Assembly: GCA_013822345.1 (NCBI GenBank)
Contig: PNKH01000070.1
Location: forward strand, 1-43,018
Direction: 5' to 3'
Origin: Isosphaera sp.
GTDB taxonomy: Bacteria; Planctomycetota; Planctomycetia; Gemmatales; Gemmataceae
DNA: 43,018 bases
Position numbers and translations under genes: made by a program. Under the pieces are notes generated by a model. It searched no databases, was not told the origin of the DNA, and saw nothing but the letters and a program-made list of their open reading frames with translations. This document shows, piece by piece, positions 3,289 to 11,101 of the stretch (position 1 is its first letter; each line of letters starts with the position of its first letter).

Positions 3289-3461
3289 CCCCTCACCCGG
3301 CTCCGGCGAAGCGCCGGAGCCGACCTCTCCCCAGCGGGGAGAGGTGGGGCTGGTGCGGCTCCTCGAAACGTTGCCGACTCGGCTAGCTTTGGAGGAGGCC
3401 GGAGGCCCCCACCTCTCCCCGCTGGGGAGAGGTCGCCGGCGCCTCGCCGGCGGGTGAGGGG
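3289..3461. repeat. MITE-like nested inverted repeat, copy 1
   Basis: A 173-bp element has ends CCCCTCACCC and GGGTGAGGGG. Inside each end is a short GC hairpin (the left one is GGCTCCGGC / GCCGGAGCC around GAAG). Further in is a 28-nt arm that starts GACCTCTCCCC and reappears as its exact reverse complement before the right end. It lies in the gap between the TadG-like and Clp-N genes, where no gene is supported (3098-3502). A second copy with the same layout is at 6281-6480. Confidence 0.85.
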
Positions 3462-4245: not shown

Positions 4246-4308
4246 CGGGCCGCCACGGAGGGCGGCCCCTACCAGCCGTTGGTAGGGGCCGCCCTCCGTG
4301 GCGGCCCG
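4246..4308. repeat. Perfect 29-bp inverted repeat with 5-nt loop
   Basis: Arms 4246-4274 and 4280-4308 are exact reverse complements separated by GCCGT. The element lies about 70 nt before the start of the secreted protein gene at 4381. The rest of the gap 3998-4380 shows no gene. As RNA it would form a very stable hairpin. It could be a mobile palindromic repeat or affect expression of the next gene. Confidence 0.9.
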
Positions 4309-6052: not shown

Positions 6053-6137
6053 CGGCAAGTTCTTGGCCAACGGCGACACGTGCTGGACCGACCCCGCCGG
6101 TCGTGGTCACGTGTCGCCGTTGGCCAAGAACTTGCCG
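6053..6137. repeat. Perfect 30-bp inverted repeat with 25-nt loop
   Basis: Arms 6053-6082 and 6108-6137 are exact reverse complements. The element belongs to a 624-nt gene-free stretch (5906-6529), which also holds the 200-bp repeat at 6281-6480 and a small GTCCTGC/GCAGGAC palindrome near 5972. Each arm contains TTGGCCAA, itself a palindrome. Confidence 0.9.
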
Positions 6138-6529: not shown

Positions 6530-8200
6530 CTACTCGATCACGATTACCCGGGTGGCGGCCGGGTCGTCCGGGTCGACGATCACCAGGCGGCCGCGGAACT
6601 TCCCGGCCAGCCACTTCCGCAGGTCGGCGTCGGGCACCGGCAGCCCGGTCCACGGGTAGTCCCCGGCCGGGGTCCGGCCGGAGTACCCGTTCACCACCGG
6701 GACGTTCGCCCGCAGCCCGGCCCACATCCCCAGCACCTCCCCGTACACCGTCTCCATTTTCGTCCCGGTCGTGTCGGTGTATCGCGGGACGACGTACCCG
6801 ATGTCGCCCTTCCGCAGCTCCGCCGCCGCCCGGTCGACCACCGTGTAGAAGTCCGCCTTGTCGAAGCTCGGCGGGTCGTACCCGACCTGCTCCGCGACGC
6901 ACCACGCCGCGACCGCCCCGAGCGCCGCCGCCCGCACCCCCGGCCGCAGCCGCCCGGTGACCCGGGCGAGCCAGACGACCGCCCCGAGGGTGCCGAACAG
7001 GTACACGGTGACGTACACCCGGGAGACGCACCGGATCGCGTGGCCGCCCGGGGCGTGCCGGACCACCGCCCACGGGGACGTGTCCCCGACCCGGAGGGTG
7101 ACGACCACCCACAGCCCGGCCGCCAGGAGGGCGGCGAGGATCACCCCGTGCTCGGGCGGCCGGCCGCGGCGGGCGGCGGTGGCGAGGAGGTGGGCGGTCG
7201 CGGCCAGCATCAGGGCGTACAGCCCGAACCCGCAGAACAACCAGTTCTCGTTCACCACCCGGGCCCGGCCCGGGGAGACGACCGGCTCCCAGACCGTCCC
7301 GGGCACCCCGGTCAGCCACGCCTCGGTGGTCGGCAGGAACGGCAGGCACTCCTCGTACCCGCGCATCAGCCCCCAGTTGACGACGAAGTACGGGACGTAG
7401 GCGAGGATCATGGCGGCCGCCCACCCGCCGAGGATCAGGGCCACCCGCCCGGTCCGGGCCCACGCCAGCCGCAGCGCCGCGGCCCACCCGCCCGGACGCA
7501 GGGCAAGGGCCAGGACGAGGAACGTCAGGAGCCCGGAGACCAGGAACCACCCGGAGTTGACGCACGTCACCGCCTGGCCGAACTCCGCCGCCGCCATCCG
7601 GTTCAGGTGCCGGAGCGGGTCGCCGGGGCCGTCCGAGCCGGAAGTGGGCGAGCCGGGAGCGTCAGCGACCGGAGTTCGGACGGTCAGGACGAACATCCAG
7701 GCGTGGTACGCGGCGAGCGGCATGAGGAACCGCGGGATCATCTGCTGGTGCTTGACCTGGTCGATCTGGATCAGCGAGAACGCCCACAGGTACCCGCCGA
7801 GGGCGGCCAGCAGGTGCGGCCCGCGGAGCCACCGGACGGCGAGGGCGAAGGCGGCGAAGTTCAGCCCGGTGAGGACGATCTGCCACCACTGGTAGGCGTG
7901 GTCGTACGGGACGCCGGCGAGGCGGAGGGCCCAGTACACGGGGGCGGCGCCGAACAGGTGCTCGGAGTACCAGAGGGTGTTCGGCTCGGGGTGGAAGCAC
8001 GGCGGGGTGGACACGGTGCCGCGGTAGTCGCGGCCGGCGACGACCTTCCAGGAATGCTCGAGGATGTAGTGGTTGAGCATCCCGTCGCCGCGCTCGGTCT
8101 GGGCGCGGGCGAACCCGGACTCCCACGTCGGGCGGAAGGTGAGGAACAGCCCGCCGGCGAGGGCGGCGGCGTAGAGGAGCAGGGGGGCAGTGGTGCGCAT
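6530..8200 (-). CDS. Polytopic membrane protein, GT-C/YfhO-like
   Basis: The 556-residue integral membrane protein has roughly ten or more hydrophobic segments (for example residues 5-20, about 105-125, 205-225, 240-262, 300-320, 330-352, 375-410). The C-terminal soluble part, about 110 residues, contains IGYVVPRYTDTTGTKMETVY and PVVNGYSGRTP. The layout, with an early extracytoplasmic loop rich in aromatic and acidic residues and a C-terminal soluble tail, fits the GT-C superfamily of lipid-linked-sugar glycosyltransferases or YfhO-like proteins common in planctomycetes. I see no diagnostic DxD that settles the donor or acceptor. It is transcribed alone and leftward. Its start at 8198-8200 is an ATG followed by a typical positive-then-hydrophobic N-terminus. 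Confidence 0.65.
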   Translation of the reverse strand: MRTTAPLLLYAAALAGGLFLTFRPTWESGFARAQTERGDGMLNHYILEHSWKVVAGRDYRGTVSTPPCFHPEPNTLWYSEHLFGAAPVYWALRLAGVPYDHAYQWWQIVLTGLNFAAFALAVRWLRGPHLLAALGGYLWAFSLIQIDQVKHQQMIPRFLMPLAAYHAWMFVLTVRTPVADAPGSPTSGSDGPGDPLRHLNRMAAAEFGQAVTCVNSGWFLVSGLLTFLVLALALRPGGWAAALRLAWARTGRVALILGGWAAAMILAYVPYFVVNWGLMRGYEECLPFLPTTEAWLTGVPGTVWEPVVSPGRARVVNENWLFCGFGLYALMLAATAHLLATAARRGRPPEHGVILAALLAAGLWVVVTLRVGDTSPWAVVRHAPGGHAIRCVSRVYVTVYLFGTLGAVVWLARVTGRLRPGVRAAALGAVAAWCVAEQVGYDPPSFDKADFYTVVDRAAAELRKGDIGYVVPRYTDTTGTKMETVYGEVLGMWAGLRANVPVVNGYSGRTPAGDYPWTGLPVPDADLRKWLAGKFRGRLVIVDPDDPAATRVIVIE

Positions 8201-8854: not shown

Positions 8855-11101
8855 ATGGCCGAGCAACTCACCGGCGTGATCGAGCGGGTCACGTTCCACA
8901 ACCTGGACAACGGGTACTGCGTCCTCCGCGTCCTGGCCCGCGGCCACCGCGACCTCGTCACCGTCGTCGGCCACCTCCAGCAGGTCGTCGCCGGCGAGTA
9001 CGTCACCGCCGCCGGCGACTGGGTCACCGACCGCACCCACGGCGTCCAGTTCAAGGCCGACGACCTCAAGACCACCCCCCCGCACACCGCCGAGGGGATC
9101 GCCCGCTACCTCGGCAGCGGCCTCGTCAAGGGCATCGGTGCCAAGTTCGCCCGCCGCATCGTCGACGTGTTCGGCGACAACACCCTCGACGTGATCGACA
9201 AGTCGCCCACCTTCCTGTCGCAGGTGAAGGGGATCGGGCCGAAGCTGATCGAGAAGATCCGCCACAGCTGGGCCGAGCAGAAGGCGGTCCGGTCGATCAT
9301 GGTGTTCCTCCACTCCTACGGCATCGGCACCGCCCGCGCCGTCCGCATCTACAAGCAGTACGGCGACGCCGCGATCGAGCTGGTGAAGGCCAACCCGTAC
9401 CGGCTGAGTACCGACATCTGGGGCGTCGGGTTCGCCACCGCCGACGCCCTGGCCCTGAAGCTCGGGCTGCCGCGCGACTCCCCGCACCGGGCGCAGGCGG
9501 CGGTCCGGCACGTCCTGTCCGAGGCGACCGGGGACGGGCACGTCGGGTTCCCCGAGGAGATGCTGCGCGACCGGGCCGCCGAGCTGACCCAGATCCCGGC
9601 GGCCGACATCGCCGCCGCGGTCGAGCACCTGCGGGTGACCGACGAGGTGGTGCGCGACAGCGTGCAGGCGGCGAGTGGCGACCCGGCGAACCGCGACCGT
9701 CAGGGAGCGGGTGTCGACGGGGAACACCCGCTCCCTGACGGTCGCGGTTCGCCCGAGGCACTCATCTTCCTCAAGCCGCTGTTCCTCGCCGAACTCGGCG
9801 TCGCCCGGGCGGTGAAGGCCCTCGCCAAGGGGCCGCACCCGCTCCCGTCGCTCGACGCGGACGCCGCCGTCGGGTGGGTCGAGACGAAGATGGGGATCGC
9901 GTTCGCCGGCAGCCAGCGGGCGGCCGTCCGGGCGGCGGTCACGAACAAGGTGATGGTGGTGACCGGCGGGCCGGGGACCGGGAAGACGACGATCGTCCGG
10001 GCGGTCCTCGAGGTGTTCCTGGCGAAGGCCCTGCGGGTGCTGCTCTGCGCCCCCACCGGGCGGGCCGCGAAGCGGCTCGCCGAGAGCACCGGGCGGGAGG
10101 CGAAGACGATCCACCGGCTGCTCGAGTTCGACCCCGGGATCGGCACCTTCCGCCGCGGCCGGGAGAACCCGCTCGACGCCGACCTGGTGGTGGTGGACGA
10201 GACGTCGATGGTCGACGTGGTGCTGATGAACCGGCTGTTGCAGGCGGTCCCGCCGTGGGCGTGCGTCGTGTTCGTCGGGGACGCGGACCAGTTGCCGTCG
10301 GTCGGGGCCGGGGCGGTGCTCACCGACCTGATCGGGTCCGGGGCGGTGCCGGTCGCCCGGCTGACCGAGGTGCACCGGCAGGCCGGCGGGAGCTGGATCG
10401 TCCGGGCGGCGCACGCGGTCAACCGCGGGGAGATCCCGGAGTCGGCGCCCGCCGGCGGGGGCGACTTCTACTTCGTGGAGGCGAACGACCCGGACGCGGT
10501 GGTCGCCCTGGTCCGGCAGATGGTGACGGAACGCATCCCGAAGAAGTTCGGGCTGGACCCGTTCCGGGACGTGCAGGTGCTGAGCCCGCAGGTGAAGACG
10601 GTCCTCGGGGTGGCGAACCTGAACCGGGAGCTGCAGGCGGCGCTGAACCCGGGCGGGCCGGGGGTGGCGGAGGTGAAGCGGTTCGACACCCCGTTCCGGG
10701 TCGGGGACAAGGTGATGCAGCTGAAGAACAACTACGACCGGGAGGTGTACAACGGGGACATCGGGCGGGTGGCCGGGATCGACGCCGACGACCAGGCGGT
10801 GGTGGTCGAGTTCGACGGCCGGCCGGTCGAGTACGACTTCGGCGACCTGGACGAGTTACAACTCGCATACTGTACGTCGGTTCACAAAAGCCAGGGGTCG
10901 GAGTACCCGGCGGTGGTGATCCCGGTCCACACCCAGCACTACACGATGCTGCAGCGGAACCTGCTGTACACCGGGATCACCCGCGGGCGGAAGCTGGTCG
11001 CCCTGGTGGGGAGCCGGAAGGCGCTGTGGGTGGCGGTGAACGCGGCCGAGACGCGGCAGCGGTACACGCTGCTGAGGTGGCGGCTCGGGGCGGACTCGTA
11101 G
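8855..11101 (+). CDS. recD2: RecD2-type ATP-dependent DNA helicase
   Basis: The 748-residue superfamily 1B helicase has the RecD2 layout. The N-terminal part (about 1-95) opens MAEQLTGVIERVTFHN and is followed by helix-hairpin-helix motifs (about 95-250). Two RecA-like domains follow: Walker A GGPGTGKTT at 371-379, Walker B VVVDETS near 445-451, motif III GDADQLPSVGAGA, and the C-terminal SVHKSQGSEYPAV near 675 and LLYTGITRGR. RecD2 unwinds DNA 5'-3' and acts in repair outside RecBCD. No recB or recC is nearby. Between the HhH region and helicase core an in-frame palindromic insertion encodes ANRDRQGAGVDGEHPLPDGR (see 9686-9752). A stretch at about 10854-10895 uses unusually AT-rich codons. 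Confidence 0.93.
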   Translation: MAEQLTGVIERVTFHNLDNGYCVLRVLARGHRDLVTVVGHLQQVVAGEYVTAAGDWVTDRTHGVQFKADDLKTTPPHTAEGIARYLGSGLVKGIGAKFARRIVDVFGDNTLDVIDKSPTFLSQVKGIGPKLIEKIRHSWAEQKAVRSIMVFLHSYGIGTARAVRIYKQYGDAAIELVKANPYRLSTDIWGVGFATADALALKLGLPRDSPHRAQAAVRHVLSEATGDGHVGFPEEMLRDRAAELTQIPAADIAAAVEHLRVTDEVVRDSVQAASGDPANRDRQGAGVDGEHPLPDGRGSPEALIFLKPLFLAELGVARAVKALAKGPHPLPSLDADAAVGWVETKMGIAFAGSQRAAVRAAVTNKVMVVTGGPGTGKTTIVRAVLEVFLAKALRVLLCAPTGRAAKRLAESTGREAKTIHRLLEFDPGIGTFRRGRENPLDADLVVVDETSMVDVVLMNRLLQAVPPWACVVFVGDADQLPSVGAGAVLTDLIGSGAVPVARLTEVHRQAGGSWIVRAAHAVNRGEIPESAPAGGGDFYFVEANDPDAVVALVRQMVTERIPKKFGLDPFRDVQVLSPQVKTVLGVANLNRELQAALNPGGPGVAEVKRFDTPFRVGDKVMQLKNNYDREVYNGDIGRVAGIDADDQAVVVEFDGRPVEYDFGDLDELQLAYCTSVHKSQGSEYPAVVIPVHTQHYTMLQRNLLYTGITRGRKLVALVGSRKALWVAVNAAETRQRYTLLRWRLGADS
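9686..9752. repeat. Palindromic element inserted in frame in recD2
   Basis: The 29-nt arms 9686-9714 and 9724-9752 are exact reverse complements around a 9-nt loop. The element lies wholly in the recD2 reading frame and adds about 22 residues at the linker between the HhH region and the helicase core. The arms encode NRDRQGAGV and PLPDGRGS type peptides. The reverse strand would encode nearly the same peptides, as expected of a palindrome. Confidence 0.9.

Follow-up and report, generated by a model that had tools for sequence, protein, structure and literature searches.

A probable REPIN-like palindromic doublet in frame within recD2 of an Isosphaera genome, and palindromes, mostly of other families, in the same enzyme linkers of related species

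The stretch of Isosphaera sp. DNA analysed here, hereafter the window, comprises 43,018 nucleotides and forms contig C70 of a 7.47 Mb genome in 226 contigs (designated G000 below). Within it lies a gene encoding the SF1B helicase RecD2 (8855 to 11101, forward strand; 748 aa), recognised by TIGR01448 (E 7e-257) and by its HHH_RecD2, OB_YrrC, SH3_13 and AAA domains, and the coding sequence of this gene is traversed by a palindrome. The locus raises the question of what kind of element the palindrome is, how it came to be translated as part of a conserved enzyme, and whether other proteins have been entered in the same manner.

The palindrome within recD2

An earlier note on this DNA had described a palindrome of 67 nt that keeps the recD2 frame at an inter-domain linker. 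The palindrome is real, in frame and so located, but it measures 69 nt (9685 to 9753): two arms of 30 nt each (9685-9714 and 9724-9753), 100% complementary to one another, enclose a 9-nt central loop (9715-9723). The reading frame continues through the element as ..PANRDRQGAGVDGEHPLPDGRGSP.., residues 277-300, between HHH_RecD2 (141-230) and the helicase domain (AAA_30 from 352). In an AlphaFold model based on a 31-sequence alignment (mean pLDDT 85.0), the sole stretch of at least three residues under pLDDT 50 is 278-298, that is, the insert; such low predicted confidence may reflect disorder or the absence of homologues of the peptide in the alignment. Relatives of RecD2 were found in Gemmata, Fimbriiglobus and other Gemmataceae. 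The likeness of the peptides read from both strands, also remarked upon in that note, is a consequence of the palindromic nature of the element, which is identical in either orientation save for the loop.

Each arm carries one half-site. The left half-site (9685-9713, forward strand) consists of a GGCGAA tag, a hairpin (9691-9710) and GTG, and the right half-site (9725-9753, reverse strand) repeats it in inverted orientation, such that the right hairpin (9728-9747) has the sequence of the left hairpin on the opposite strand. The half-site folds as CCGC-GA-CC-GTCA-GG-GA-GCGG, in which two short stems are separated by a GA/GA mismatch and closed by a GNNA tetraloop. Because the foot of the element is GCGAA or GCGAG, not GTAG/GTGG, it was not filed as a GTAG (or CGTC) REP. 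Chance does not account for the palindrome, since none of 60 shuffled versions of the linker reached its arm length and since the 20-nt half-site core, at up to two mismatches, occurs 180 times forward and 180 times in reverse in the same genome, against 0 occurrences of a reversed control pattern. If nearly all of these half-sites pair as doublets, the genome holds about 180 elements.

A dispersed family and the genes it enters

The family was characterized in a sample of 60 fetched stretches plus the window (446,562 bases, about 1.1 kb of which is counted twice). Among the 97 clusters found there, 26 were single half-sites, and 24 of these, with two to three mismatches, were dropped as probable chance matches. 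The remaining 73 elements comprise 60 of type A (the order of the recD2 copy), 11 of type B (the opposite order) and 2 that are single at the threshold used, so that 71 of 73 are arranged as inverted doublets. Stretches picked by exact half-site matches supplied 45 of the type A copies, that of the window among them, and these form a less biased set; the other 15 come from stretches picked by searches with the RecD2 copy and are biased toward its length. Lengths in the sample range from 61 to 78 nt. Half-site columns hardly vary across 29 positions (CACCCGCTCCCTGACGGTCGCGGTTCGCC), beyond which a CGG is more weakly conserved. Conversely to this constancy, the 45 compared copies carry 45 different spacers beside left arms that are 97% identical, a pattern that copying of whole doublets does not explain; spacers of equal length share 45% identity, as compared to 29% expected from composition. 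The spacers (L039-L083; window 9715-9723) often differ in length too, with 3-20 nt within CACCCG ends. Most type B copies (near L041, L052, L062, L072 and L079) are embedded in a longer, imperfect palindrome that has ends of the kind CAGGGCCGTTCGG..CCGAACGGCCCTG, a G-rich left flank and a C-rich right flank, and that is perhaps a larger composite element.

Gene context was assigned with a codon model trained on 165 ORFs, rather than from annotation. By this model, 13 of the 60 type A copies are intragenic and in frame (10/45 in the less biased set, or 9/44 without the window). This count leaves out L053, whose two sides had open frames in one analysis and not in another, as well as L088 and L089, which lie at gene ends. 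The other 47 lie between codirectional genes (24), convergent genes (11) or divergent genes (1), or in ambiguous context (11). A stop codon precedes 41 of these 47 extragenic copies, and 49 measured distances span 2-40 nt with a median of 11 nt.

The search for DGRGS/DRQGAG-like peptides in other proteins, proposed in the earlier note, was productive: complete in-frame copies are present in 13 genes across the 446 kb sampled. Besides RecD2, the hosts are threonine synthase, a RarA-like AAA ATPase, a protein with ketoacyl synthase and acyltransferase domains, a carboxyltransferase beta-like protein, the large subunit of glutamate synthase (GltB), an ABC ATPase, a DUF2344/TIGR03936 protein, malto-oligosyltrehalose synthase, PurL, a class III aminotransferase, and two proteins (L069 and L073) without a profile match; names rest on profile matches, some below the curated cut-off, and on PDB relatives. 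Alignments to PDB relatives break or weaken at the inserts, though not base-exactly. Read from the sequence, a copy whose length is a multiple of three meets TGA in one of three phases and is open in the other two. Among in-gene copies of such length, 10 of 11 read ANRDRQGAG..HPLPDGRGSP and one reads RTATVRERV..TRSLTVAVR, such that one hydrophilic frame predominates (one-sided binomial p 0.006, calculated by hand). In the less biased set, with the window left aside, length is divisible by three for 8 of 9 in-gene copies and for 15 of the 35 others (p 0.016, one-sided Fisher test).

Had all close RecD2 proteins carried the peptide, the reading of the earlier note would have been refuted; it occurs, however, in 0 of the 16 other congeneric linkers read (those of G002 and G018 were not readable). 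The inserts are likewise absent from GltB in 14/14, the carboxylase in 18/18, PurL in 17/17 and RarA in 9/10 aligned relatives. Absence is incomplete for RarA because the RarA linker of G003 contains a doublet whose core is the same (exact in one arm, one mismatch in the other) but whose tag and spacer are different. This doublet may be a shared or an independent insertion, and the explanation favoured below does not depend on complete absence from RarA of relatives. At least one half-site (up to two mismatches) was found in 16 of 18 other genomes of the genus, with a maximum of 308/290 in G003; low counts such as 0/1 in G012 and 2/3 in G011 (where the control gives 1) may be due to chance. 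Across 392 genomes of the phylum, our own included, 23 have a half-site at no more than one mismatch, with large counts in scattered families, a patchy distribution that fits lateral spread or repeated loss.

Hairpin units, Y1 genes and competing explanations

Two sibling units in the same genome, CCGG-GA-GC-GNNA-GC-GA-CCGG and CCC-GA-GC-GNNA-GC-GA-GGG, have a similar 5' tag. Their stems are altered in compensated fashion (CCGG-GA-GC..GC-GA-CCGG; CCCC-GA-GC..GC-GA-GGGG) with the GA/GA mismatch and GNNA loop kept, and a unit of G014 also preserves this plan with changed stems and a similar 5' tag. In G010, 57 of 61 matches depart from the query solely at the two middle bases of the tetraloop (counted by eye, with up to two mismatches allowed). 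Half-sites were compared in an alignment of 23 rows (A1), from which own_L094B was left out. One single sibling-family unit lies in the window itself (7647-7675, forward strand), within the ORF 6530-8200 of the reverse strand, and is translated TPVADAPGSP; a near-match to this peptide, PVADAPGSP, also occurs in the GltB linker of G001.

Tetraloop variants of the element's hairpin are found on both sides of Y1 genes in three relatives (G003, L304, and G013, L307, loop GCAA; G031, L311, loop GTAA), where flanking of L307 and L311 assumes a start codon downstream of the upstream hairpins. In our own genome, a Y1-like gene on contig C35 (L301/L320), which has a weak Y1_Tnp match (E 3e-4) and no Pfam match as a protein, has the sibling CCC-GA-GC-GNNA-GC-GA-GGG on both sides. 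For L302, another Y1 gene of G003, the palindromes on either side contain a GNNA hairpin that is similar but lacks the exact GA/GA pattern. Pfam Y1_Tnp is matched by L302, L304, L307, L311 and L317, and the Y....Q motif is present in L301, L302, L304, L307 and L311 and absent from L317. Hairpin feet are CGGA or CCGA at L301, L302 and L311, ACGA at L304 and L307, and GCGA in the recD2-element family. These positive cases derive from 20 stretches hand-picked among weaker Y1_Tnp matches, where GA/GA hairpins were observed in 4 of the 5 stretches that carry a Y....Q gene and in none of the 15 others (in L305, L313 and L319 no ORF was seen). A first set of 30 Y1_Tnp loci from 59 genomes yielded a half-site (up to two mismatches) at G003 L108 only, and GA/GA hairpins were present at 2 of 34 Y1 loci versus 8 of 77 control loci, some of the controls having been chosen for carrying such inserts. 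The exact family, at up to three mismatches, was found within about 1.5 kb of 0 of the 5 Y1_Tnp genes found in our own genome (three of them searched with wider flanks also). The genes on C75, C14 and C28 have other repeats nearby, and C49 has no repeat of at least 12 nt in the stretch scanned. The strongest Y1_Tnp gene, on C75 (L129 / L121), has GCCAGGGGT-type palindromes on both sides, and the gene on C14 (L131 / L299) has its own repeat, GGCAGGCAGGAATGCCTGCC, on both sides.

The recD2 palindrome looks mobile. Since its arms are REP-like hairpins, and since Y1 genes are flanked by such hairpins in three relatives and by sibling hairpins in our own genome, the most likely identity is that of a REPIN-type doublet of class 3 REPs; the class 3 assignment derives from motif and context, rather than from the profile of the authors who defined the class. 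We consider it very probable that the element is a REPIN-like doublet, presumably of REPs linked to class 3 TnpA(Y1), that would be mobilised by a HUH enzyme and filtered by reading frame and linker tolerance. Each element consists of two REP-like units (imperfect 20-nt hairpins that have a GNNA tetraloop, an internal GA/GA mismatch and, on the 5' side, a tag of GCGAR type) inverted around a variable spacer. Under this model, a HUH enzyme of the TnpA(Y1)/RAYT type, of the class 3 kind of planctomycetes, would recognise the single-stranded hairpins and paste doublets elsewhere. Most surviving copies lie just behind stop codons, and selection would act as a filter within genes, leaving those copies that do not interrupt the reading frame and that are located in flexible linkers. 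That of RecD2 would be one such survivor, with a near-neutral effect on the enzyme.

Three other explanations were weighed against this model. Were the peptide a lineage-specific functional part of RecD2, encoded by DNA that is palindromic by coincidence, both the preservation of the frame and the prevalence of one hydrophilic frame in 10 of the 11 copies of suitable length would be accounted for. The same DNA, however, recurs in a further 12 unrelated genes of the sample, most of its copies are extragenic, and the peptide is missing from all 16 of the other congeneric RecD2 linkers read, which makes this explanation highly improbable. An origin as RNA 3'-end elements, terminators or mRNA stabilisers behind stop codons with only accidental copies in genes, is somewhat less improbable, though still quite unlikely: short distances from stop codons, the position of 11 of the 60 copies between convergent genes and a stem of -70.8 kcal/mol predicted when the RecD2 copy is folded as RNA all accord with it, whereas the 12 nt beyond each arm contain no run of four T at any of the 120 sides of the 60 type A copies, 13 of the 60 lie inside genes, and Y1 genes are flanked by the hairpins. 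A role at RNA 3' ends could nonetheless be a secondary use of copies.

Least probable of all, and only barely credible, is the idea that the palindrome forms the body of a classical MITE and that a DDE-type transposase moves it. The longer common flanks of most of the 11 type B copies, described above, would suit such an element, but the 60 type A copies, that of recD2 included, share nothing beyond GGCGAA..TTCGCC and the weak CGG. Moreover, no target duplication was seen by eye in the flanks of sampled copies, relatives being too distant for base-exact empty sites, and the hairpins beside Y1 genes again count against a DDE-type enzyme. The REPIN-like doublet remains our preferred reading, and it extends the identity given in the earlier note with the support of the data above: the element belongs to a REP-like family, probably linked to Y1 transposases, that is one among several families in the same linkers.

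Known systems and the linkers of related species

Comparison is made here with the available portions of the literature on each system. Like REPINs and their RAYT genes (PMC3116915, PMC8266576), the family presents a short imperfect hairpin with a stem mismatch, hundreds of dispersed copies, inverted doublets and, for tetraloop variants in relatives, an association with Y1 HUH genes, and, as is the case for REPs and REPINs, copies are mainly extragenic and near gene 3' ends (47/60 extragenic, 41/47 behind a stop codon). Unlike RAYT REPs, the tag is GCGAR-like in place of GTAG, and the in-gene share is high, at 13 of 60 sampled copies, as compared to Pseudomonas fluorescens SBW25, in which 14 of 1,067 16-mers overlap genes (PMC3116915/PMC8266576). 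Class 3 TnpA(Y1) proteins are characterized by a Y----Q motif, Planctomycetes among their hosts, CnGA-footed flanking structures and high hairpin copy number (PMC6006769). The planctomycete host, the motif, the hairpins beside the gene and the high copy number are shared here, whereas the foot, CGGA or CCGA at L301, L302 and L311, is GCGA in the recD2-element family and ACGA at L304/L307, not exactly CnGA; neither a GA/GA-GNNA hairpin nor insertion into host proteins is described for class 3 in the part of PMC6006769 available.

In-frame REPs are already known, from Rickettsia RPEs and from Di Nocera 2013. According to the accessible part of PMC3733652, REPs are translated inside ORFs in several species, many in repair genes, with doublets encoding 20-30 aa, and REPs in recB occupy about the same site in two Xanthomonas species. 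The present family resembles these GTAG/CGTC REPs in being translated within ORFs and in having a repair gene among its hosts, and differs from them in its tag and in the sharing of linkers by palindromes of several families across the genus. The Rickettsia palindromic elements, an older case, are in-frame palindromes of about 150 bp within unrelated conserved proteins (PMC10969869, as far as available); insertion into unrelated ORFs is common to both, and the length here is 61-78 nt, the comparison being one of descriptions. The earlier note's statement that tolerance of translation is seldom described is accordingly only partly right, as translated REPs within genes are already in print. Among the papers listed in searches of the planctomycete literature, we recognised no description of the GA/GA-GNNA family or of linker colonisation by palindromes. 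As far as searched, what is new is the GCGAR-tagged GA/GA-GNNA family with its Y1 genes, together with the repeated colonisation of the same linkers by several palindrome families.

The latter was observed in linkers of RecD2, RarA, GltB, the carboxylase and PurL, which were chosen because G000 has a copy there, in species that are not independent. Eighty linkers were extracted, excluding seven rows that failed the anchors (RecD2 of G002 and G018; RarA of G010, G006 and G018; carboxylase of G004; PurL of G016). An inverted repeat with arms of at least 12 nt is present in 34 of the 80 (29 of 75 without G000), compared with 1 of 480 random control windows of the same loci. In both G009 and G015 the RecD2 and RarA linkers carry arms of GGCGAGCGGGGGRCRTRAGYCCCC, as does the carboxylase linker of G015. 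The RecD2 and RarA linkers of G001 have CCTCCCCTAAGAAGGGAGGGG-type arms. RecD2 of G003 has arms of the CGGCGTGAGCCGGC type, and a similar peptide is present in RarA of G005. The carboxylase linker of G014 holds a GA/GA-GNNA doublet, and further linkers hold other palindromes, some of them short. The GGCGAGCGGGGGRCRTRAGYCCCC family is itself dispersed, with 124/124 matches in G015, 59/59 in G009, 21/18 in our own genome and 0 in G006, G012 and G017.

Among linkers at least six residues longer than that of the shortest species, 28 of 37 contain an inverted repeat of at least 12 nt (23 of 32 without G000), compared with 2 of 24 other length-variable blocks of the same ORFs, one of the two being a terminal block of 436 residues. 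The shortest RecD2 linkers read belong to G012 and G017, genomes that each have at most one copy of the recD2-element family or of the GGCGAGCGGGGGRCRTRAGYCCCC family. Palindromic repeats thus seem to be a main route of linker growth in these enzymes. A stronger proposal is that doublets of several unrelated families are the main source of linker lengthening in the genus and, in addition, re-enter the same linkers beyond what tolerance would produce, either through an insertion preference or because a hairpin in the mRNA brings some benefit where two domains meet, for example by pausing translation; we regard this as conceivable but rather doubtful.

These data turn a known curiosity, REPs within genes, into a process that can be measured as to which linkers are entered, how often and by which families, and they chart where insertions are naturally tolerated in enzymes such as RecD2, RarA, GltB and PurL. 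They also provide a candidate REP architecture, in which a GA/GA mismatch is combined with a GNNA loop and a GCGAR-like tag, for comparison with class 3 TnpA(Y1) proteins, and a route whereby selfish DNA may shape protein linkers. Caution is warranted in the annotation of planctomycete proteins, as such peptides can derive from repeats rather than be features of domains. Elsewhere in the window, outside recD2, three more long perfect inverted repeats with arms of 29-30 nt (3321-3435, 4246-4308 and 6053-6137) do not belong to the family of the recD2 element.
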